DNA of 64,000 bases from an uncultured Eubacteriales bacterium (GTDB lineage: Bacteria > Bacillota > Clostridia > Lachnospirales > Lachnospiraceae). The notes under the pieces were generated by a model. It did not search any database. It saw only the letters and a list, made by a program, of their open reading frames with translations, and had not been told where the DNA came from. Position numbers and translations under genes: made by a program. This document shows positions 2,674-63,899 of the stretch, piece after piece. How positions within the stretch are numbered: position 1 is the first letter of the stretch; the number at the start of each line of letters is the position of its first letter. Where the stretch lies: assembly GCA_900315305.1 (NCBI GenBank), contig OMYS01000011.1:1-64000 (forward strand), given 5' to 3'.

Positions 2674-3318
2674 TCAGGCCCTGACAGCCTTGAGAATGTC
2701 ACTGAAGACTTGATCCATGGACTGCGTGCCGTCGACCGTGACGAGAATCTTCTTCTTGTCATAGTAGTCGATCAGCGGCTGCGTCTGCTCGTGATAAACA
2801 TTCAGTCTTGTCTGAACTGTCTCCGGCTTGTCGTCATCGCGAAGGACAAGCGGATGCCCGCATGTATCGCAGACGCCTTCCTTCTTCGGCGGATTGTACT
2901 GCACATGGTAAGTCGCACCGCAGTTCAGGCAGGCGCGTCTTCCGCCCATGCGTGTGATAATCGCCTCATCTGGAACGTCAATATTGACCGCGTAATCGAT
3001 CTTCGTGCCAAGAGCAAGAACCGCTTTATCAAGAGCTTCTGCCTGCGGGATTGTTCTCGGGAAGCCGTCCAGAATATATCCCTCTTTGCAGTCGTCCTTC
3101 GCGATTCTGTCCGCAACCAGATCGCACACCAGCTCATCCGGAACAAGCTTACCGGCATCCATGTAGGATTTTGCCTTCTTGCCAAGCTCCGTACCGTTCT
3201 TGATGTTTGCGCGGAAAATATCTCCTGTGGAGATATGCGGAATGTTCAGTTCTTTTGCAAGATTTGCAGCCTGCGTGCCTTTCCCTGCACCAGGAGCTCC
3301 GAGCATGATAAGTCTCAT
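2674..3318 (-). CDS. adk: Adenylate kinase, zinc-LID type
   Basis: Catalyses ATP + AMP = 2 ADP in the cytosol. From [14 protein letters not shown] at 3318 the protein has 214 residues. The P-loop GAPGAGKGT is at residues 7-15, the NMP-binding HISTGDIFR at 28-36, DGFPRT at 84-89 and the LID zinc cysteines at 130, 133, 150 and 153, the Gram-positive form. A longer upstream start in frame (3363) exists, but the ATG at 3318 has AGAGG eight bases upstream and aligns with family N-termini. It follows secY after an unusual 197-base gap. Confidence 0.97.
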
Positions 3319-3515
3319 TTGTTTTACCTCTTTTTCAGCCATTTTTGTATTCAGTACCCTCAATGAGGAATGCGAAGCACTCCAGGTCCGGGATACTGAA
3401 TAGTCACTTCTTTAGATAACGCTAGGGAACGCCCGGGATGCATCTTCATGCATCTCAGACCTTCCCTGAGCGCGGATCGCCTCAGCCCCTGCCCGGGAAC
3501 CAGGCGAACCCAAAG
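3319..3515 (-). other. Structured gap between secY and adk, containing a dispersed repeat
   Basis: There is no gene. On the minus strand the region after secY holds CCCGGG-rich stems, a palindromic GATGCAT hairpin near 3441-3460, and then the family-A repeat copy (3365-3407) enclosed by TATTCAGTA / TACTGAATA arms. In most related operons secY and adk are close together, so this reads as an insertion of structured non-coding DNA. Whether it acts on transcription or translation of adk is unknown. Confidence 0.5.
3365..3407 (-). repeat. Dispersed intergenic repeat, family A, copy 1
   Basis: On the minus strand the unit reads from a GTGACTATTCAG head through CCCGGACCT to a hairpin GGAGTGC-TTC-GCATTCC. 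Three further copies occur at 23775, 39215 and 49091. This copy has an extra outer stem, TATTCAGTA pairing with TACTGAATA just beyond it. Confidence 0.7.
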
Positions 3516-14236: not shown

Positions 14237-14462
14237 AAAAAAAGTCGCCTCCTCTTCGCACTTTTACGAGTACGACAAGCGGTGACTGTACACATGCCCG
14301 GGTGTGTCGTTATTTTTAAGACCACCTTTGGGCTCCTCCGTCTTCCTGACGGTTATTCCTGCACAGTGACTTGTCGCCAGTATCCTTACATGACATTCGC
14401 TCCACGGAGAACCTGCAACGATGTGCAGCAACTTCACGCTTCATAGCTATCATGTCACAGCA
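14237..14462 (-). promoter_or_regulatory. Long structured 5' leader of the ribosomal superoperon
   Basis: Between the predicted transcription start (about 14462) and rpsJ there are about 226 untranslated bases with no coding frame. Minus-strand stems include CTGCA/TGCAG, CCGTC/GACGG, TGACAT/ATGTCA and GACAAG/CTTGTC pairings, the last spanning nearly 100 bases. A leader of this size fits autogenous control by a ribosomal protein, but no known motif was recognised. Confidence 0.45.
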
Positions 14463-51502: not shown

Positions 51503-54500
51503 TTATCTGCGATGCTTCTTCTTTCTTCTCCTGCCGCCGGATGCTTTTCCTGATACGTCAACGGTATGCCCCGAGCCGCGGGCCTCCCGGACAGCCGCAT
51601 CGATCGCCGCGTTCTTCGCCTCGCGCTCTCTGCGCTCTTCTCCGGAATCATGGACAGCCAGATCATCCTTGAAGTCCTGCGCACGCGTATGCCTGTGCGC
51701 AGCCGTATTCCGCTTCATCATAAATTCCGGAATATCAGGTCCGGCGGACGTCCGTCTCGGCTCATCGGACGGCGCGCTCGTGTGGCTTCCCGTCAGCTCC
51801 GACATATCGTGAGACGCGTAGTAGCTGCCGTTTCCGGCGCTTCTGCTGCCATAGACGTCCTCGCTCTGCGCTGCAGCTTCCGCTCCATACGGCTGGCCAG
51901 CCGCGGTGCTTGTATCCGCGGACGCATCATCCCCCTGTTCCGGTTCGGAATATGATGCGTTCCCGGCGTCTTCATCAGACGAAGCCGGCGTGACATCCGC
52001 GTCCTCGGCCGGGGCATCATTCATATTCTCGACGACTTCATCTTCCGGATATTGATCGGAATCCTGATCCTCCTCGTACGGCTCTTCGTCCACACTGAAG
52101 TCAAAGACTGCCTCGACTCCGTCAGGTGCCGTGCCGCCTTCATCCTCATCTCCGGTCTCTTCAGCGTCTGTATCCGCCTCATCTGCATCATTCACAACCT
52201 CCTCTTCGTCGGCTGTGATATGCTCCTCTGATTCACCGTCCCTTGTTTGAGCGGCAGGCTCCTCCGGGGAAAGCGCCTCAGCGGAGGCGTCGTCTGTCGC
52301 ATCTGCCCGCTGATCATGTCCATCCTGTGAGTCACCGCTGTCTGCCTTGCCCTGATCTGCGGCATTCTCCTCAGGAGACACCTCGCGCATATCATCTGCT
52401 GAAGCATTTTCCTCACCGGCCGTCTCGCGTTCCTTGTCCTTCTCCTTATCGGCCGCAATGCGCTCCTCAACCTTTCTGCCTACATTTCTCAGAAATGAAG
52501 GCAGTGCGGTCTCCCCGTGCTTTTTCTCTTCCTTTCCGTGATCGAGCATTCTGGCATAGCGGGCATCCACATCATCCGACTCAAGAACTGCCTCGTCATC
52601 TCTGACACCCGGACCGCTCTTTTTGCTGATTTCCTCCTCGAATTCCTCATCCTCTTCGTCGCCGAAATCATCATCCAGATCGTCCAGATCATCATCCAGG
52701 TCGTCATCGTCCAGGTCATCATCCGGATGATTGTTCACTGCGGCCCTGCGCGAGGTCATGCCGTGAAAAACGCTTCTCTTCTTTTCGGGTTTCTTCTTTT
52801 CAGCTTCCTTCTTCTCAGGCTCCTTCTTTTCAGGTTCCTTGTCCTTCTCTTCTTCCTTTTCTTCCTCAGAGTGCGCCTCAGACTTCACTGCCTTCTCCGT
52901 GCGCTCACTGCGGCTGCTCTTCACCGCCTCGCTGCCCGGCTTCTGTCCGAAGCTGAAATCATCCTCGTCATCTTCCTCATCGTCGTCCTCGTCATCCTCT
53001 GAGGTATCCTCCTCATCGACGCTGAGGAAGGTCCCGATCGTGTGACCGAGCCGGCTGAGGAAGCTCCCGTTCTTCTCCTTCGGCTGTTTTCTCGCAGGCT
53101 TTGCCTCCCTGCGTTCTTCGGCAGCCTCTGGTTTGTCTGTCTCCTCCGCCGCGGCTTCACGGACTGTCTCTTCAGCGGCTTCTTCCGGTGAGACAGCGGC
53201 CTCCTCCGCAGAGCCCTCATTTTCATCAGACAAAGCAGACTCCGCGCCGGATGGTGTTTCATGTTCCGGGGTATTCACATCAGGCGCATTCTTCTCATCC
53301 TTCTCATAGAAGCTGTACGTCCTGCGGCCCTCGGCATCCTTCGGCTCCGCACTATCCTCCGAAGCTTCGTCCTCGTCATCATCGTCGTCATCATCGAAGT
53401 CCTCAAACCAGGACTTAAGCCGGCTTCCCACCGACTCTCCGGACTTCTTCCTGTCCTTCTTCTTTTCGCGCCGCTCCTCTCTCTCTTCATCGAGGCTGCG
53501 CTTCTGGCTGATCCGCGAGAGCAGGCTCTTCTTTGCGCTCAGGTCATCCTCGTCATACTCAGAAGAATCTGCCCCGTCTTCCCCGGACTTCTCTGCGCCG
53601 GGAACAAGGCCGTCTATGACGCTCATGTCGAGGACCGGAAGACCGTCTGTATCCGTTTTAGCCTCCGCCTCACGCTTCAGATCAGAGCCGTCCTCCGCGG
53701 CGGCTGTCTCCTTCCGGATCGCCTCCTCGGCGTCAGAGGCCTGCCGCGCGACATCCCCTTCTGCCTCAAGAAAGGCGTCGCTGTCCTCGTCTGTCTCCTC
53801 ATTCTGATCAGAAGCAGACGCATCTGCGGAGGCCTGGTTTTCCTCAGAAGCCTCCGGCTCCTCTCCCGCCTTTGCCGGCTCTGTCACAGAAGATGCCTGC
53901 CATGTCTCAGACGCTTCACTCTCTTCAGGTGCATGTGCCGCCTTCTCCGGCTCAGCGCCTGTCTGCTCATTCTCCGAGACGCCGGAGTACTGATTCTCAG
54001 ACTCATCGGCTGCCTGCTCACTCTCAGAGAAGCCAGAATAACGATTGTCAGGCTCAGTGTCTGTCTGTCCGGCCTCCAAGAAGCCGGAGTAACGCTTGTC
54101 AGATCCTGCAGGTGTCTCTTCAGTCTCAGAGAAATTGTCAGCAGCCTCCTCCGCTGCTTCTTCCTGAGGCCCCTGACCCGACGTGTCCCCTGCCGGATAT
54201 GCCGCATCTGCCTGGAAGGACGGCGATGCAGTATCCGCTGCCTTCAGATTCTCCACTCTGCCGGAAACAGCCTTATTTCCTGCGGCTGTCGCGTGCTCGG
54301 CGTACAGTGCGCCTGCCTCCCAGTTCTCGCGCAGGAAATCAGTCTCCATGATCTGCTTTGCGTCGTAGCCGTCGCGGACAAATGCAGAGTCCGTAAACTC
54401 ATAGCTGTACGGCGTGATCCGGACGACAAAGAGCTTCACCGGCATCGCCGCCAGAGAATCGGCCGTGATCTCCTTCTGCTCAAGGACCGTGAAATATTCG

Positions 54501-55183
54501 ACAGAATCATCCGCAACGAGCTCTGCATTTCCCATGATCTGCAGGCCCCTCACGTCCTCCGTCGACACATACGGATCAAAAATCGCCGCCGAAATCTGTC
54601 CGTTGCCGAAAATGCCGCGGAACTTGTTGCCGCCCTCCGTGATGATATACAGCCTGTGCTCAAGGAAAATATACTCGAGCGGCGTGCAGCGCACATAGCC
54701 CTCATCCGCCGTCGCGAGGCAGAGCGTATTGTGCTCGATAATAAAGTCATCGATTGCCCGCTCCAGCTGTACCTCCGGCATGACATTGACCGGGGCGCGC
54801 ATCATCTTTCCGATCTCGTAGCCCGTCCGCGGCGTGTCGCTCTCCGAGGAAATGAAATACCCCGCGATGCCTGCGATTCCGGCCGCCGTCTCCGTGTCCG
54901 ACACATACTTCGCGTAGCCGATATCCGAGAAGCCGATTCCGACAAATGCAATTCTCTTCTCCGCGAGCACGTCCCTGTGCCCTGTGAGAAATGCTCTCGT
55001 CCTGCCTGCGGTGACCGCTCCGTAAAAATTAAAGACAAAGCAGTACCCGTCATAATCTGCAAAGTTCTGCGGTACATCAGAGATCTCCGCGGCGTTGCTG
55101 TTGCCGATCAGGCAGCACAGCGTCTGCGCGATTCTCTCCGCAGAGCTCATTTTTCCATCGTACAGCAAAAGCGTTCTGCTCAT
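51503..55183 (-). CDS. Giant flavodoxin/PNPOx-like protein with a 900-residue acidic disordered tail
   Basis: The 1226 residues split in two. The first 300 are folded: a flavodoxin-like domain (MSRTLLLYDGKMSSAERIAQ; RIAFVGIGFSDIGYAKYV; 1-140) and a pyridoxamine-phosphate-oxidase-like FMN barrel (about 150-290: DDFIIEHNTLCLATADEGYV; KFRGIFGNGQISAAIFDP). The remaining 900 are Glu/Asp/Ser/Ala-rich, with three copies of an RYSGF-type repeat (about 365-410), long Asp runs, Lys/Glu runs and a very basic end, GGRRRKKKHRR. No signal peptide or membrane segment is seen. The combination is unfamiliar; function is unknown, but a flavin-binding redox head on a charged tether is the sequence-based reading. 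Confidence 0.85.
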   Translation of the reverse strand: MSRTLLLYDGKMSSAERIAQTLCCLIGNSNAAEISDVPQNFADYDGYCFVFNFYGAVTAGRTRAFLTGHRDVLAEKRIAFVGIGFSDIGYAKYVSDTETAAGIAGIAGYFISSESDTPRTGYEIGKMMRAPVNVMPEVQLERAIDDFIIEHNTLCLATADEGYVRCTPLEYIFLEHRLYIITEGGNKFRGIFGNGQISAAIFDPYVSTEDVRGLQIMGNAELVADDSVEYFTVLEQKEITADSLAAMPVKLFVVRITPYSYEFTDSAFVRDGYDAKQIMETDFLRENWEAGALYAEHATAAGNKAVSGRVENLKAADTASPSFQADAAYPAGDTSGQGPQEEAAEEAADNFSETEETPAGSDKRYSGFLEAGQTDTEPDNRYSGFSESEQAADESENQYSGVSENEQTGAEPEKAAHAPEESEASETWQASSVTEPAKAGEEPEASEENQASADASASDQNEETDEDSDAFLEAEGDVARQASDAEEAIRKETAAAEDGSDLKREAEAKTDTDGLPVLDMSVIDGLVPGAEKSGEDGADSSEYDEDDLSAKKSLLSRISQKRSLDEEREERREKKKDRKKSGESVGSRLKSWFEDFDDDDDDDEDEASEDSAEPKDAEGRRTYSFYEKDEKNAPDVNTPEHETPSGAESALSDENEGSAEEAAVSPEEAAEETVREAAAEETDKPEAAEERREAKPARKQPKEKNGSFLSRLGHTIGTFLSVDEEDTSEDDEDDDEEDDEDDFSFGQKPGSEAVKSSRSERTEKAVKSEAHSEEEKEEEKDKEPEKKEPEKKEAEKKKPEKKRSVFHGMTSRRAAVNNHPDDDLDDDDLDDDLDDLDDDFGDEEDEEFEEEISKKSGPGVRDDEAVLESDDVDARYARMLDHGKEEKKHGETALPSFLRNVGRKVEERIAADKEKDKERETAGEENASADDMREVSPEENAADQGKADSGDSQDGHDQRADATDDASAEALSPEEPAAQTRDGESEEHITADEEEVVNDADEADTDAEETGDEDEGGTAPDGVEAVFDFSVDEEPYEEDQDSDQYPEDEVVENMNDAPAEDADVTPASSDEDAGNASYSEPEQGDDASADTSTAAGQPYGAEAAAQSEDVYGSRSAGNGSYYASHDMSELTGSHTSAPSDEPRRTSAGPDIPEFMMKRNTAAHRHTRAQDFKDDLAVHDSGEERREREAKNAAIDAAVREARGSGHTVDVSGKASGGRRRKKKHRR

Positions 55184-55998: not shown

Positions 55999-56940
55999 TC
56001 ACTGTCCGGCATTTACCTCCTCATAATTTCCGAGAAATGTAAAGCCGGGGCACTCCTCCTTTAATTTTTCCAGAATCTGCCGCACATGCTTGTCCCTGAC
56101 CGATGCCTCAATATCGATATAAAATGAAAACTCAAAGTCACGGCCCGGGATCGGCGCGCTCTCCAGCTTGAGCAGGTTGATGCCGGCTCCCGCGAAGAGG
56201 TCAAGGACATGCGCGAGCGCCCCCGGCTTATGCTGCAGGTTCAGAATCAGGGAAATGCGGTTCGCACCCGGATAGACGTCCGGCTCCCGCGCAACGACAA
56301 GAAAACGCGTGTAATTCCGGTCGCTGTCCGCGATATGCTTCTTCACGATATCAAGCCCGTAGAGCTCCGCACACTCCGGAGCGGAGATGCACGCGATCCC
56401 CGGATCATCTGACTCCGAGACAAGGCGCGCAGCGACGGCCGTGTTGAGGCAGGCCTCCTCCTCAACCTTGTCACCGAGCGAATGTAGAAATTCCGAGCAC
56501 TGCCCGAGGGCCTGCTCATGGGAAATGACCTTCCTGATCATGCCCGGTTTTCCGCCCTTCTTCATCAGAAGAACATGTGTGATTTTCTGCGGCATGGAAC
56601 GGACGATCGAAACCTCCCGTCTGCCCAAAATCCGGTAGACATTCTTGACCGACCCGTACGTGTTGTTTTCGATCGGCAGCACGCCGAACCGGCACATGCC
56701 CTCCGACACAGCCCTTGCGACGGCACCGAAATTCTTAAAATACATGATCCTTCCCTGCGGAAACAAGGCAGTCGCCGCGAGCTGCGAATTCGCGCCGCGC
56801 ACTCCCTGGCAGGCGATGATCCCGCCGTCCGGGAACACCGTCTCCTCCGGAAGAATCCGGTAACCTTCCGTGAGCACAAGGTCCGCCTGCTCTGCAGGCT
56901 CCCCGCCTTCCTTCTTTCTGATCGTATCTCCTGTAATCAT
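55999..56940 (-). CDS. pheA: Prephenate dehydratase with C-terminal ACT domain
   Basis: Converts prephenate to phenylpyruvate, the committed step to phenylalanine. Start ATG 56940 (MITGDTIRKKEGGEPAEQAD), five bases after GGAGG; an upstream ATG (57003) has none. Of 313 residues, an N-terminal linker (1-40) comes first, then the dehydratase domain (ACQGVRGANSQLAATALFPQ; VLPIENNTYGSVKNVY; DSDRNYTRFLVVAREPD with the TRF motif), then the ACT domain (about 225-305: SLILNLQHKPGALAHVLDLF; KLESAPIPGRDFEFSFYIDI, a variant of the ESRP Phe-binding motif). No chorismate mutase domain. It follows aroF under the Phe leader. Confidence 0.94.
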   Translation of the reverse strand: MITGDTIRKKEGGEPAEQADLVLTEGYRILPEETVFPDGGIIACQGVRGANSQLAATALFPQGRIMYFKNFGAVARAVSEGMCRFGVLPIENNTYGSVKNVYRILGRREVSIVRSMPQKITHVLLMKKGGKPGMIRKVISHEQALGQCSEFLHSLGDKVEEEACLNTAVAARLVSESDDPGIACISAPECAELYGLDIVKKHIADSDRNYTRFLVVAREPDVYPGANRISLILNLQHKPGALAHVLDLFAGAGINLLKLESAPIPGRDFEFSFYIDIEASVRDKHVRQILEKLKEECPGFTFLGNYEEVNAGQ

Positions 56941-57030
56941 CTGATCCTCCGTTTCATCCGGGACATTGCAGCTTTCCCGGCCGCCCATGCATATCCAGCC
57001 CACTTCAGCCCTTATCCGGCGCCATTTCTC

Positions 57031-58059
57031 TTATTTAATGACAACCGGCTTCCGGTCATCGTCGACAACCTCCTTGATCTGGAACAGGTTCTTCGCCAGC
57101 CGGTCGAAGACCGCCGGTGTCAGTGACTGCGCGCCGTCGCATTTTGCGTGCGGCGGATCGTTGTGGACCTCAATGATAAGGCCGTCCGCTCCCGCCGCAA
57201 CTGCCGCGCGGGCCATAGAAGGAACAAGCGCAGATTTTCCCGTCGCGTGAGACGGATCAATAATAACCGGGAGATGCGTCAGTGTCTTTAAGGATGGGAT
57301 GCACGCAAGGTCCAGCGTGTTCCGCGTGTAGGTCTCAAAGGTGCGGATGCCGCGCTCACAGAGAATGACGTTCGGATTGCCGCCGGCCAGAATATACTCG
57401 GCGCTCATCAGAAGGTCCTGATAGCTCGCCGCCATGCCGCGCTTTAAAAGAATCGGCTTTCTTGTCTTGCCGAGTGCCTTGAGAAGAGAAAAGTTCTGCA
57501 TATTGCGCGCACCGACCTGAAGGATATCAATGTCCTCGAAGAGCGGAAGCTGCGACGCGTCCATAATCTCCGTGCAGATCGGAAGGCCGGTCGCCTCCTT
57601 CGCTTTCAGCAGAAGACGGATGCCGTCGATCTGCATGCCCTGGAAGGAATAGGGCGACGTGCGCGGCTTGAAGGCGCCGCCGCGGAGAACGGTTGCGCCC
57701 GATGCCTTGACAGCCTTCGCGATGCCGACGATCTGCTCCTCGGACTCAACCGAGCAGGGCCCCGCGATCAGCGTCAGATTTCCGCCGCCGATCGTGACGT
57801 CACCGACCTTCACGACCGTGTCATCGGGGTGGAATTTGCGGTTCGCATTTTTGTACGGCTCCTGCACGCGCTTGACGTCCTCGACAATGTCGAGTGACGC
57901 GATCAGATCCATATCGAGCGACGAAGTGTCGCCGATCAGTCCCAGAATCGTCTGTCTTGAGCCGACTGTCGGATGCACATCAATATTCTGCTCCTTGAGC
58001 CATTTCATCAGGCCGTCTAACTGCTCCTTGTCCGGATTGTCCTTCAGTATTACAATCAT
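57031..58059 (-). CDS. aroF: 3-deoxy-7-phosphoheptulonate (DAHP) synthase, type I-beta
   Basis: First step of aromatic synthesis: PEP + erythrose-4-P to DAHP. The 342 residues start with a small regulatory domain (about 1-75: MIVILKDNPDKEQLDGLMKW) of the type found in Thermotoga-like enzymes, then the barrel: LIAGPCSVESEEQIVGIAKA, GGAFKPRTSPYSFQGM, ILLKRGMAASYQDLLMSAEY and PVIIDPSHATGKSALVP, with Cys, His, Glu and Asp metal ligands. It is transcribed behind a Phe-rich leader peptide and a terminator, so expression should respond to charged tRNA-Phe. Confidence 0.96.
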   Translation of the reverse strand: MIVILKDNPDKEQLDGLMKWLKEQNIDVHPTVGSRQTILGLIGDTSSLDMDLIASLDIVEDVKRVQEPYKNANRKFHPDDTVVKVGDVTIGGGNLTLIAGPCSVESEEQIVGIAKAVKASGATVLRGGAFKPRTSPYSFQGMQIDGIRLLLKAKEATGLPICTEIMDASQLPLFEDIDILQVGARNMQNFSLLKALGKTRKPILLKRGMAASYQDLLMSAEYILAGGNPNVILCERGIRTFETYTRNTLDLACIPSLKTLTHLPVIIDPSHATGKSALVPSMARAAVAAGADGLIIEVHNDPPHAKCDGAQSLTPAVFDRLAKNLFQIKEVVDDDRKPVVIK

Positions 58060-58093: not shown

Positions 58094-58129
58094 CGAAAAA
58101 AAGCCCTGCAGTCGATGGACTGCAGGGCT
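58094..58129 (-). terminator. Attenuator terminator in the aroF-pheA leader
   Basis: Minus strand perfect 12-bp stem AGCCCTGCAGTC / GACTGCAGGGCT, four-base loop CATC, then T7. It stands between the leader peptide stop and aroF, so transcripts reaching aroF must read through it. Confidence 0.9.
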
Positions 58130-58154
58130 TACATATGTCTCCTCTTCCCCTTTT

Positions 58155-58241
58155 TCAGTCACACCGACAAGACCTTACCGTGCAAAAGGTAAAGCCTGTA
58201 AATGCGAAAAAGAAAAAGTTGAAGAAACGATTCTGTGTCAA
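58155..58241 (-). CDS. Phenylalanine-rich leader peptide of the aroF-pheA operon
   Basis: A 28-residue peptide, MTQNRFFNFFFFAFTGFTFC and CTVRSCRCD-type end, with nine phenylalanines in residues 6-19. The start is TTG at 58241, eight bases after GGGAG; TGA is at 58155. It is followed by alternative stems (CTTTACC/GGTAAGG at its end, then the terminator at 58094-58129). This is the classical arrangement of pheA attenuation as in E. coli pheL, where ribosome stalling at Phe codons prevents the terminator. Not too short to ignore: the context makes it convincing. Confidence 0.85.
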   Translation of the reverse strand: MTQNRFFNFFFFAFTGFTFCTVRSCRCD

Positions 58242-58272
58242 TGGATGCTCTCCCGCTTTAAATAATATCTAA

Positions 58273-58301
58273 AACTTATCACCGTCATACTGCATTGTCA
58301 A
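58273..58301 (-). promoter_or_regulatory. Promoter of the aroF-pheA operon
   Basis: Minus strand -35 TTGACA (58301-58296), 17-base spacer ending TGA, -10 TAAGTT (58278-58273), an extended -10. Start of transcription near 58266, about 25 bases before the leader peptide. Confidence 0.75.
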
Positions 58302-58361: not shown

Positions 58362-58398
58362 TAGATTACTGGAAAGTAGTACGCATATGGAGGAAGCT

Positions 58399-59343
58399 AT
58401 GAACAAAGGAGTTAAAATCAGTGTTATCGGTGCAGGAAGAGTAGGATCTGCAGTTGCCCATACAATCGCAGTTCAGTCTCTTGCATCAAAGATTGTCATT
58501 GTTGATATCTTCAAGGAGAAGGCGCAGGGCGAGGCGCTTGATATCCGCCAGGGTACATCCGTCCTTGAATTTGCGACAGAGTGCGTCGCCGGCGAGTACG
58601 CTGACACAGCGGATTCGGACATCATCATCTTCACACTCGGTGCTGCCCGCAAGCCCGGCCAGTCCCGTCTTGATCTCGCGAAGGGCAACGTCACGATCAT
58701 CGAGAGTGTAATCCCGCAGATCGCTTCTCTGTCCCCGAACGCGAAGTACGTTATCGTATCGAACCCGGTCGATATCGTCACATACACAATCATGAAGCTT
58801 TCCGGCATCCCGGAGAACCAGATCATCGGCACAGGCTGCCTGCTTGATACAGCCCGTCTCAGAGATGAGGTCTCCACATACGCTGGTGTCAGCCCGAAGA
58901 ACATTCATATGAACGTCTTCGGTGAGCACGGCGCAACAGCGATGATCCCGTGGTCACTCTGCTCCATCTACGGCGAGAACTTCGACAAGTACATTGCAGC
59001 TCGTCCGGAGCTCCATATGCCGTCTCACGAGGAGCTTCTCTCCGACGTTCACGGCGCCGGCGGCAGAGTCATCAAGCTGAAGGGCGCGACATTCTATGCC
59101 GTATCCATTATTACGGCCTATGTCTGCAGCTGCATCCTTCATGACGCGAAGGCAGTCCTTCCGCTCTCGACCATGATGCACGGCCAGTTCGGACTTGAGG
59201 ATGTCTGTCTGTCTCTTCCGTGCGTACTCGGCGCGGATGGCATCGAGCGTGTCAACCAGCCGGCTATGAACGACGAGGAGATCGCAGAATTCGTCAAGAG
59301 CGGCAACTCCCTTAAGGAGATCACAGCCGGTCTCAACATCTGA
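58399..59343 (+). CDS. ldh: L-lactate/malate dehydrogenase family protein
   Basis: NAD-dependent 2-hydroxyacid dehydrogenase of the LDH/MDH fold. From MNKGVKISVIGAGRVGSAVA (58399; GGAGG five bases upstream) it has 314 residues. Landmarks: GAGRVGSA (NAD loop), VIVDIF, the substrate loop GAARKPGQSRLDL, NPVDIVTY, TGCLLDTARLRDEVS and MNVFGEHGATAMIPWS with the catalytic His. At the specificity position (Gln102 in standard lactate dehydrogenases, AxQKPGETR) there is Arg, the residue typical of malate dehydrogenases, so the substrate should be tested. Single-gene unit with terminator. Confidence 0.88.
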   Translation: MNKGVKISVIGAGRVGSAVAHTIAVQSLASKIVIVDIFKEKAQGEALDIRQGTSVLEFATECVAGEYADTADSDIIIFTLGAARKPGQSRLDLAKGNVTIIESVIPQIASLSPNAKYVIVSNPVDIVTYTIMKLSGIPENQIIGTGCLLDTARLRDEVSTYAGVSPKNIHMNVFGEHGATAMIPWSLCSIYGENFDKYIAARPELHMPSHEELLSDVHGAGGRVIKLKGATFYAVSIITAYVCSCILHDAKAVLPLSTMMHGQFGLEDVCLSLPCVLGADGIERVNQPAMNDEEIAEFVKSGNSLKEITAGLNI

Positions 59344-61066: not shown

Positions 61067-61864
61067 TTATCCGAGAATCGCCTGGTCATTCGAGAATTCC
61101 TTGCCGGATACCTTCTCGAACTGGTGAAGGAGGTCCTCCACCGTGAGCGACTTCTTTTTCTCTCCGCGGATGTCCAGAATGATCTGGCCCTCGTTCATCA
61201 TGATCAGACGGTTGCCATGCGCAATCGCATCGCGCATATTGTGCGTGACCATCAGCGTCGTCAGATGGTCTCTCGCGACGATCTTCTCTGTCGTCGAAAG
61301 GACCTTTTCCGCCGTCTTCGGGTCGAGCGCCGCCGTGTGCTCATCAAGGAGAAGAATCTTCGGCTTCTGCAGCGTCGCCATGAGAAGCGTGAGCGCCTGT
61401 CTCTGTCCGCCGGACAGGAGACCGACCTTTGCGGTCAGCCGGTCCTCGAGACCGAGATCGAGAATCTTGAGCTTCTCCTTGTACTCCATCCGCTCCTTGC
61501 TCGTGACGCCCCAGCGGAGCGTGCGGCGCTTCCCGCGTCTGTCCGCGAGCGCCATATTCTCATCGATCTGCATATCGCCGGCCGTGCCCGTCATCGGGTC
61601 CTGGAAGACGCGTCCGAGATAGACGGCGCGCTTGTGCTCACTGAGACCGGATACGTCCTGCCCATCGATGATGATCGAGCCCGAATCAACCGGCCACACG
61701 CCCGCAATCGCGTTCATGATCGTCGACTTGCCGGCTCCATTTCCTCCGATGACCGTGCAGAAATCGCCGTCCTCCAGCGCGAGGCTGACATCGATCAGCG
61801 CACGCTTCTCATTAATCGTCCCTGCATTAAAGGTCTTATAAATGTGCTTTAACTCGAGCATCAC
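61067..61864 (-). CDS. ABC transporter ATP-binding protein (TrpZ-like)
   Basis: Powers the importer encoded with the next two genes. The 265 residues carry Walker A GGNGAGKST (about 40-48), Q-loop FQDPMTGTAG, signature LSGGQRQAL (about 148-156), Walker B ILLLDEHTAALD (about 171-182) and the H-loop MVTHNM. The four-base overlap with the permease (61861-61864) supports coupled translation. The class (with TrpX-type binding protein) resembles tryptophan/aromatic import systems; the ligand is not proven. Confidence 0.9.
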   Translation of the reverse strand: MMLELKHIYKTFNAGTINEKRALIDVSLALEDGDFCTVIGGNGAGKSTIMNAIAGVWPVDSGSIIIDGQDVSGLSEHKRAVYLGRVFQDPMTGTAGDMQIDENMALADRRGKRRTLRWGVTSKERMEYKEKLKILDLGLEDRLTAKVGLLSGGQRQALTLLMATLQKPKILLLDEHTAALDPKTAEKVLSTTEKIVARDHLTTLMVTHNMRDAIAHGNRLIMMNEGQIILDIRGEKKKSLTVEDLLHQFEKVSGKEFSNDQAILG

Positions 61865-62841
61865 TCCGCCTCCTTATTCTGCGCCGCTCTTGCCGCCTTC
61901 GCGTTGCGCCGCGCAAGACCGCGGAACGAATTCTTCCTGTGCTCCCTGTAGTTCGGGACCGCAAGGAACAGCGCGACGACGATAGCCGTCAGGAGCTTCA
62001 TGTCGTCCGCCGGGAACTTGAGCCAGAGGACCAGTACGTAGACGAAATAGTAGACAATACCGCCGATCACCGTGAAGGTCAGCCGCAAAATGAAATTCAG
62101 TCTCTTGCCGAGGATGGCCTCCGCAAGCACCTCGCCGATGATGACAGCCGCAAGACCGATGACGATCGAGCCCTGGCCCATCTTGACGTCCGCGAAGCCC
62201 TGGTACTGGGAGATCATTGCCCCGGAGACAGCGATCATGCCGTTGCTGACCGCGAGCGCGACAACCTTCATCAGCTTTGTGTTGATGCCCTGCGCGCTCG
62301 ACATATGCGCGTTGATGCCGGTCGCGCGGACCGCGCTTCCGATCTCGGTTCCGAGGAACCAGTACAAAATTCCGATGATCGCCGCGTCAAAAATGAACGT
62401 CAGCGTGATCGTCTGGCCGAGCATCGTGATGTTCGATGTGAACGGCATCTGATGCGTGCCGACCGGAATAGCCTGGTTGGCCTTGCCCATGATGTTCAGG
62501 TTGATCGAATACAGCGCGATCTGTGTCAGAATTCCGGCCAGAATGTCCGGAATCCCCATCACTGTGTGAAGAATGCCTGTCACAAGTCCCGCTATGACGC
62601 CGCAGACAAATGCAATAAGAAGCGCCACAAACGGATTGACTCCCCTGATAATCATCATGGCGCAGACACAGCCGCCGAGTGCGAACGAGCCGTCGCAGGT
62701 CATATCCGCGAAGTTCAGGATGCGGAATGTCAGGTACACACCGAGTGCCATGATGCCCCAGATCAGGCCCTGTGCCAGGCCTCCCGGCATGGCGTTCCAG
62801 AGCGCTACAGGACTCAGGGATGAAAAATAAGCTGCTAGCAT
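61861..62841 (-). CDS. ABC transporter permease (TrpY-like)
   Basis: Membrane channel of the same importer. The 326 residues contain about eight to nine hydrophobic segments; GGLAQGLIWGIMALGVYLTF at the start, the segment TCDGSFALGGCVCAMMIIRG and LILGKRLNFILRLTF-type region near the C-terminus fit the branched-chain/BMP/TrpY permease family. The C-terminal tail is basic (HRKNSFRGLARRNAKAARAA). GGGAGG lies six bases before the ATG. Gap to the binding protein is 17 bases. Confidence 0.9.
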   Translation of the reverse strand: MLAAYFSSLSPVALWNAMPGGLAQGLIWGIMALGVYLTFRILNFADMTCDGSFALGGCVCAMMIIRGVNPFVALLIAFVCGVIAGLVTGILHTVMGIPDILAGILTQIALYSINLNIMGKANQAIPVGTHQMPFTSNITMLGQTITLTFIFDAAIIGILYWFLGTEIGSAVRATGINAHMSSAQGINTKLMKVVALAVSNGMIAVSGAMISQYQGFADVKMGQGSIVIGLAAVIIGEVLAEAILGKRLNFILRLTFTVIGGIVYYFVYVLVLWLKFPADDMKLLTAIVVALFLAVPNYREHRKNSFRGLARRNAKAARAAQNKEAE

Positions 62842-62858
62842 TGAAAGCCTCCCGTCAC

Positions 62859-63899
62859 TCAGGACTCTGTCGAGCTCGCGGAGGAGTCGTCAGATCCGAT
62901 TGCCGTGTAGCCGTCCGGCATTGTGAAGCCGATCGCCTTGGCGTAATCTGCATTGTATTCCTTTGTCGTCGCAGATGCGTACTGAATAGCCATTGTCGAC
63001 GGGTCCGTGCCGTTCTCGAGGATGTCGATCGCCATCTTGCCTGTCTGGTAGCCAAGGTCATAGTAGCTGATAGACAGCGTCGCGAGACCACCGGCCTTGC
63101 ACATATTCTCCTCGCCACAGATAACCGGGATCTTCGCCGGCTCCGTGATGTTCTTGACAAGTGTCATATTGGAGGCCGCCGTGTTGTCGGTCGGGATGTA
63201 CATAGCGTCGCAGTCAGACACCGCGGACTGAACGACAGACTGAATATCGTTGGAATCTGCAAATGTGTACTCCTGATATGCGATTCCGTCGTCCTTGAGG
63301 TAGCCCTCGATCTTCTGCGCCTGGAACTCGGAGTTCGCCTCCGCGGAGCAGTAGACAATCGCAACCTTCTTTACATTCGGGACAAGCTCCTTGATCATAG
63401 CCTCCTGCTGATCGAGCGGAGCCAGATCGGATGTACCGGAGACATTGAGACCCGTTGTTCCGGAGAAATTGTCCATGGAAAGAGCCGTGCCGTAATCTGT
63501 GACCGATGTGCCGAGGATCGGAATCGTCGATGTCGCGGATACAGCTGCCTGAAGAGCCGGCGTTGCATTTGCCATAATCAGATCATAGTTATTGGAGACG
63601 AAGCCGTTGACGATCGTCGCGCATGTCGTGGAGTCGCCCTGCGCGTTCTGCAGATCGATCTTGACGTTGTCGCCGAATTCCTTCGTCAGGGCGTCCTCAA
63701 AGCCCTGTGTCGCGGCATCGAGCGCGTTGTGCTGAACCAGCTGGCAGATACCGATCTTGTAGGTCTTGCCGGATGCGCCGGAAGCTGCCGACGTCGCATT
63801 TGCCGATGACGAAGCCGTCGATGAAGAGCTGCCGCATGCCGCAAGTCCGACTGCCATCGCGGCTGAGACAGCCGCTGCCATAAATCTTCTCATTTTCAT
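62859..63899 (-). CDS. ABC transporter substrate-binding lipoprotein (TrpX-like)
   Basis: From MKMRRFMAAAVSAAMAVGLA (63899; GGAGGGG seven bases upstream) it has 346 residues. The lipobox LAAC (about 19-22) marks a lipoprotein anchored outside the membrane; a Ser/Ala-rich linker follows, then the periplasmic-binding-protein-type domain typical of the TrpX/ABC_sub_bind family: KIGICQLVQHNALDAATQGF, TIPILGTSVTDYGTALSMDN, YIPTDNTAASNMTLVKNITE and YYDLGYQTGKMAIDILENGT. A longer frame starting at 63983 ignores the signal peptide and is rejected. Ligand unknown; tryptophan or another aromatic is the family-based guess. Confidence 0.9.
   Translation of the reverse strand: MKMRRFMAAAVSAAMAVGLAACGSSSSTASSSANATSAASGASGKTYKIGICQLVQHNALDAATQGFEDALTKEFGDNVKIDLQNAQGDSTTCATIVNGFVSNNYDLIMANATPALQAAVSATSTIPILGTSVTDYGTALSMDNFSGTTGLNVSGTSDLAPLDQQEAMIKELVPNVKKVAIVYCSAEANSEFQAQKIEGYLKDDGIAYQEYTFADSNDIQSVVQSAVSDCDAMYIPTDNTAASNMTLVKNITEPAKIPVICGEENMCKAGGLATLSISYYDLGYQTGKMAIDILENGTDPSTMAIQYASATTKEYNADYAKAIGFTMPDGYTAIGSDDSSASSTES

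Follow-up and report, generated by a model that had tools for sequence, protein, structure and literature searches.

A pheL-like attenuator predicted in front of aroF-pheA in a Lachnospiraceae genome, and aromatic leader peptides before related clostridial DAHP synthase genes

Attenuation at pheL-pheA is a textbook mechanism. In Firmicutes, the regulation of aromatic amino acid synthesis is generally attributed to T-boxes, TRAP or feedback. T-box leaders (RF00230) resemble the element described here in measuring tRNA charging and acting by antitermination, and they are found near some distant clostridial aroF genes, but they bind tRNA directly and need no leader peptide. Classical ribosome-mediated attenuation in Gram-positive bacteria is known for other pathways. 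His-leader attenuators occur in bacilli, Eubacteriales and Erysipelotrichales, in lineages that lack the usual regulator; they concern histidine genes, and few genomes have been reported, 17 of them in PMC9413887 (PMC2965389, PMC9413887). The Leu-rich ilv-leu attenuator of Staphylococcus aureus is likewise a Gram-positive leader-peptide system, supported by mutants, but it serves branched-chain amino acids and is unrelated in sequence (PMC5794164).

The closest published case found is the uORFC-13-1 motif before Acholeplasma aroF, which has a predicted leader frame with one or more Phe codons and a terminator, and for which attenuation has likewise been proposed (PMC8632094). The motif comprises 24 sequences, from Acholeplasma and unassigned environmental DNA only, with "at least one" Phe codon; compared by description, it differs from the leaders considered here in having neither clostridial members nor a match of Tyr and Phe codons to operon content (PMC8632094). 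We found no paper on aromatic leader peptides before clostridial aroF in the open-access literature, and an earlier mention may exist.

We analyzed a stretch of 64,000 nucleotides (the window) from an uncultured Lachnospiraceae bacterium, which carries the following features around its aroF-pheA genes.

58387-59343, plus strand: lactate dehydrogenase gene, the divergent neighbour on the other side of the leader region
58273..58301, minus strand: predicted sigma-70-type promoter TTGACA-N17-TAAGTT, read in the sequence, with the same promoter in a congener (locus L004)
58250..58254, minus strand: ribosome-binding site GGGAG of the leader frame, read in the sequence 8 nt before the TTG at 58241
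58155..58241, minus strand: leader peptide frame with a TTG start, 28 codons, 9 Phe, 0 Tyr and 0 Trp, with similar leaders in relatives
58185..58226, minus strand: Phe codon cluster (codons 6-19), read in the sequence, part of attenuator region 1, where modelled stalling opens region 2
58173..58194, minus strand: conserved leader hairpin CTTTACC-N8-GGTAAGG, covarying in the alignment of leaders (helix 1, 93.8% of cells paired)
58156..58165, minus strand: region 2, GGTGTGACTG, the antiterminator strand, which overlaps the leader stop and is predicted by stall folding and the cognate pairing test at 65 loci
58114..58122, minus strand: region 3, CAGTCCATC, terminator 5' arm plus loop, predicted to pair with region 2 from folding and compensating changes in the congener L004
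58096..58130, minus strand: intrinsic terminator with a 13-bp stem, a CATC loop and a T run, read in the sequence, its stem covarying in relatives
57031..58059, minus strand: aroF, DAHP synthase with an N-terminal ferredoxin-like domain, 342 aa (PF00793 2.5e-76, PF18152 2e-21; NF006421 above cut-off)
55999..57003, minus strand: pheA, prephenate dehydratase with an ACT domain, start codon uncertain (PF00800 1.9e-49, PF01842 6.3e-9)

We consider it very probable that this element is a classical ribosome-mediated transcription attenuator, which senses how much Phe-tRNA(Phe) is available and adjusts aroF-pheA expression accordingly. It has the Phe-rich leader peptide, 1:2 hairpin, 2:3 antiterminator, 3:4 terminator and pheA-containing operon of the enterobacterial pheL-pheA system (RF01859, Phe_leader). 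The differences are that DAHP synthase shares the operon, that the leader starts with TTG and that relatives mix in Tyr and sometimes Trp codons. The layout of the pheL type is found in the window part by part: a promoter followed by a short frame with a ribosome-binding site (sequence), clustered codons for an amino acid made by the operon (9 Phe in 28 codons; aroF-pheA), a 1:2 protector or pause hairpin (folding, covariation), an antiterminator exclusive with the terminator (masked folding, cognate pairing in the family) and an intrinsic terminator between the leader and the first gene. The RF01859 model aligns to the element over its whole length, but the score of 29 bits is below the gathering score of 55, and therefore we do not file the element as a Phe_leader member and speak of a likeness of layout. 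Membership of any Rfam family was rejected: no family fitted at gathering or relaxed thresholds, Phe_leader reaching no more than 29 bits.

The earlier note on this DNA had claimed the minus-strand promoter and a 28-codon frame with nine Phe codons, starting at TTG behind GGGAG, and both are read directly in the sequence. The promoter hexamers are TTGACA (58301-58296) and TAAGTT (58278-58273), separated by a 17-nt spacer; a simple promoter scanner did not list this promoter because TAAGTT is a poor fit to TATAAT. The congener G209 (locus L004) has an identical TTGACA-N17-TAAGTT in the same place, and a strict TTGAC[AT]-N16-18-TANNNT motif lies no more than 120 nt from 47 of 91 related leaders. 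The leader codons are TTG ACA CAG AAT CGT TTC TTC AAC TTT TTC TTT TTC GCA TTT ACA GGC TTT ACC TTT TGC ACG GTA AGG TCT TGT CGG TGT GAC TGA, with Phe at codons 6, 7, 9-12, 14, 17 and 19 and the stop at 58157-58155; the predicted peptide is (M)TQNRFFNFFFFAFTGFTFCTVRSCRCD. Eight Phe in 12 codons are reached by this frame alone among the 1184 small frames of the window, the runner-up having 5. The leader RNA folds far more stably than its shuffles (z = -6.2), and the hairpin at 58173-58194 is probably the pause/protector hairpin, the apex of the 1:2 structure.

The terminator hairpin, AAGCCCTGCAGTC-CATC-GACTGCAGGGCTT, occupies 58130-58101 and its T run reaches 58096. The earlier description of a perfect 12-bp hairpin holds for the hairpin with a T run before aroF; the stem has 13 bp counting A-T pairs and 11 bp without them, so that 12 falls in between. 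The sequence GACTG at 58160-58156 is complementary to CAGTC at 58122-58118, as had been proposed for the antiterminator, and the pairing is longer than was stated: it extends to GGTG-(T)-GACTG (58165-58156) with CAGTCCATC (58122-58114), and compensatory changes maintain it across the family. The corresponding strands in G209, whose AroF is 86% identical, are GGC-(G)-TGACC and GGTCAGCC, and the changes from T-A to C-G at two positions indicate that the region 2:3 pairing is kept by compensation.

Folding with a masked ribosome, in line with the earlier suggestion to fold the leader in alternative windows, separated the stalled ribosome from the ribosome at the stop. In a ribosome-free transcript reaching to the terminator loop, a long hairpin formed with the leader coding region holds region 2 closed. 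If the masked ribosome has its A site on Phe codons 9-12, the freed region 2 pairs with region 3; a ribosome at the stop codon instead covers region 2, and nothing then competes with the terminator. Full-equilibrium folding lets the terminator win in every modelled state, and therefore the switch would depend on co-transcriptional timing. The window's own 2:3 pairing is not better than that of shuffles of the same upstream sequence (-15.1 vs -14.0, p = 0.30), and for this reason the family-wide permutation was used; the support for the predicted pairing in the window comes from the family.

We infer promoter use, leader translation, stalling and the direction of the response from this arrangement, as follows. 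Transcription from the promoter at 58301-58273 would start downstream of it, and translation of the leader would begin at the TTG at 58241. With plentiful Phe-tRNA the ribosome would reach the stop at 58157 and cover region 2 (58165-58156), and the terminator at 58130-58096 would form. Under scarce Phe-tRNA the ribosome would stall on codons 6-14, breaking the region 1:2 structure and leaving region 2 free; region 2 would then pair with region 3 (58122-58114) before the 3' arm of the terminator is made, giving read-through into aroF and pheA.

Sampling of aroF loci covered 250 genomes of the window's family, 80 genome-collection loci and 349 genomes of the phylum. A leader frame was defined by at least 6 aromatic codons in 12, and a terminator by -8 kcal/mol or better. 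The genome-collection aroF loci have a leader frame in 60/80 cases and a frame with a terminator in 49/80, whereas the control, the remaining genes of these loci that have an upstream gap, gave 7/319 and 3/319; together with covariation and cognate pairing, this comparison supports the earlier proposal of classical ribosome-mediated attenuation. Most close relatives have a short frame rich in Phe and Tyr codons, whose start usually lies 140-280 nt upstream of aroF; one example is MKRNLFAAEYFYFNFAYFFGKAFSRLADNRF. Seven aromatic codons in 12 were observed in 42%, against 1% of shuffles. The enrichment is specific to Phe/Tyr/Trp, with no such excess for other residue groups, and to the frame (27% vs 11% and 16% in the other two frames). 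A terminator follows 65/77 leaders compared with 15/154 shuffles, the remaining 12/77 leaders having none by the rule used.

The leader and terminator together follow AroF identity: they occur in 12/12 loci at an identity of at least 70% (window included), in 22/34 at 65-70%, in 38/72 at 60-65%, in 15/26 at 55-60% and in 4/17 below that. Relatives that keep the hairpin and lack the Phe-rich frame had been named as evidence against attenuation, and the 12/12 loci are the opposite of that pattern. Distant Lachnospiraceae aroF genes are mostly without the leader, and 3 of 20 of their upstream stretches tested have a T-box match, which agrees with the earlier remark that T-boxes often control such operons in Firmicutes. 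The earlier note had also called attenuation with a non-ATG start notable. ATG was chosen in 75 of 77 leaders and the TTG start is peculiar to the window's genome; the arrangement itself is no isolated oddity, being common before clostridial aroF.

Three MAGs titled Lentisphaerae, Kiritimatiellae and Planctomycetaceae (L068, L080, L112) have a clostridial-type aroF with an aromatic leader, although binned outside Firmicutes; this may reflect gene transfer together with the leader, or a binning error. The leaders of L100, L101, L102, L108, L206 and L217 (Pelosinus, Clostridium and others) add Trp codons in a recurrent W-G-Y/F-F-S-A-G-Y-F-like pattern, and this subgroup possibly senses three aromatic amino acids.

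An alignment of 18 leaders showed structural conservation in the stems of the terminator and of the leader hairpin, which in the window is CTTTACC/GGTAAGG. In this alignment 94% of cells are paired and 13 of 19 pairs are changed on both sides. The covariation score is 0.49, where shuffles give 0.21 and sliding gives no more than 0.12; 0 of 500 shuffles reach the observed value. The antiterminator was examined over 65 loci: cognate pairing of region 2 with region 3 has a mean of -15.4 kcal/mol against -11.3 between loci, a mean advantage of 4.1 kcal/mol (z = -13.3) that none of 20000 permutations reach. This between-locus permutation is the covariation test; dinucleotide shuffles, against which the 2:3 pairing has a mean z of -1.9, answer a different question.

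Modelling of 65 leaders gave a median of about 12 expected 2:3 pairs with a stall in the aromatic cluster, 0 with the ribosome at the stop codon and 1.6 with no ribosome. The ribosome at the stop removes the modelled antiterminator, relative to the stalled ribosome, in 92% of loci; because region 2 was picked by pairing, the stall folding illustrates the mechanism more than it provides independent proof. The median distance from the last aromatic codon of the cluster to the start of region 2 is 16 nt (quartiles 14-24), a gap of about one ribosome footprint, as would be covered by a stalled ribosome. A search of 349 whole genomes of the phylum with a covariance model made from 13 leaders produced 4 matches, 4/4 directly upstream of aroF, in the window's genome and in G314, G338 and G400, the latter three not used in model building. 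The model finds the subgroup with the CTTTACC/GGTAAGG hairpin only, and thus does not measure how widely the whole family is spread.

Leader codon mix and operon content match. The mean Tyr share of the aromatic cluster is 0.14 where only pheA follows aroF (11 loci), 0.54 where tyrA comes first after aroF (56 loci) and 0.34 where aroB/aroA come first (13 loci); pheA-only and tyrA-first operons differ at p = 9e-7. In the phylum sample, taken later, 3 of 5 pheA-only leaders have 0 Tyr in the cluster and the other two have shares of 0.33 and 0.43, compared with 0.33-0.67 in tyrA leaders (n=17). The Tyr share of a pheA-only leader is below the mean of its three nearest tyrA relatives in 11/11 comparisons, which are not fully independent. 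The operon type changes about 9-10 times on the AroF tree; well supported branches give 3 strict independent pairs, of which about 2 agree and 0 oppose, too few for a sign test. In genome G096, which has two aroF copies, the aroF-tyrA leader has 7 Tyr and 0 Phe and the aroF-aroBA leader has 9 Phe and 3 Tyr; the copies (L007 / L182 and L041 / L113) form a natural pair for leader specificity. On balance we favour the view that the window belongs to an uncatalogued, widespread family of clostridial aromatic leaders that precede DAHP synthase genes and whose Phe:Tyr(:Trp) mix changes in step with the operon. On this view operons ending in pheA would listen to Phe, operons with tyrA would respond to Phe combined with Tyr, and the leader of a second aroF copy can be tuned differently.

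In the window's genome tyrA sits elsewhere (G000:C44), apart from aroF-pheA, and has neither a leader peptide nor a T-box upstream; the second DAHP synthase gene (G000:C89) is likewise without a leader or T-box. The substrate-binding protein of an ABC transporter operon at 61067-63899 on the minus strand is TrpX-like, scoring 255.7 bits where the curated cut-off is 390; this operon also lacks a leader peptide and a T-box upstream. Other observations in and beside the window are a 1226-aa protein at 51503-55183 on the minus strand, whose N-terminus is short and probably folded, whose very long remainder is acidic and of low complexity, and which has no NCBIfam match; ribosomal protein leaders S10-Clostridia (14371-14452) and S4-Clostridia (1972-2042), both on the minus strand; and two tandem Clostridiales-1 RNAs of about 105 bits each just past the window end (L233:2755-2923 and 2940-3104).

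Other explanations of the element were weighed against attenuation. The Phe-rich frame could be incidental: the RNA would require a U-rich strand as pairing partner for the purine-rich segment just past the leader stop, and control of the terminator would lie with a protein or a small molecule instead. The window's minimum-energy fold, in which the Phe codons pair with GAAAAAGGGGAAGAGGAG, speaks for this, but relatives use Tyr as well as Phe codons, in frame (27% vs 11 and 16%) and matched to the operon, while other T-rich residues are without enrichment and a riboswitch or protein-binding RNA family is absent at Rfam thresholds; we regard an incidental frame as very improbable. Less probable still is a TnaC-like arrest, in which the nascent leader peptide would stop the ribosome on sensing free Phe or Tyr. 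Some relatives do share peptide stretches near the leader end, such as FGKAYFGLA and FFCC; these coincide at least partly with the covarying hairpin AGCTTTACC/GGTAAGGCT, and therefore RNA pairing explains them. Moreover, the C-terminal peptide of the window differs from that of the congener, and the sign of the regulation would be wrong for a biosynthetic operon.

That the leader is a decayed relic before an ordinary terminator, with aroF-pheA read from an unnoticed downstream promoter, would accord with the TTG start and with a peptide diverged from those of relatives. Decay is hardly compatible with antiterminator partners that stay complementary in both genus members through the T-A to C-G changes at two positions, or with the retention of leader and terminator in all twelve loci closest in AroF, and we give this reading very little credence. 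The lowest standing of all, next to negligible, falls to a T-box or another tRNA-binding leader controlling the operon. T-boxes are widespread in Firmicutes and occur near some of the more distant Lachnospiraceae aroF genes, but the covariance search contradicts this reading: the RF00230 model has no match in the window region nor in 16/17 relatives scanned, and the single match, in L102, is on the opposite strand at 3186-3447.

Ribosome-mediated attenuation is the preferred reading, and in kind the element is a classical pheL-like attenuator, the new parts being the breadth in Clostridia and the codon-operon match. Among the loci tested, no Rfam 15 family recognises the elements, and current annotation therefore probably overlooks them. 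A large part of Clostridia, many gut lineages included, probably uses proteobacterial-style leader-peptide attenuation at the first enzyme of the pathway. The leader codon mix can be read as a record of the end product that an operon serves and gives direct predictions for unannotated operons, and the family offers natural replicates for how codon choice sets attenuator sensitivity.
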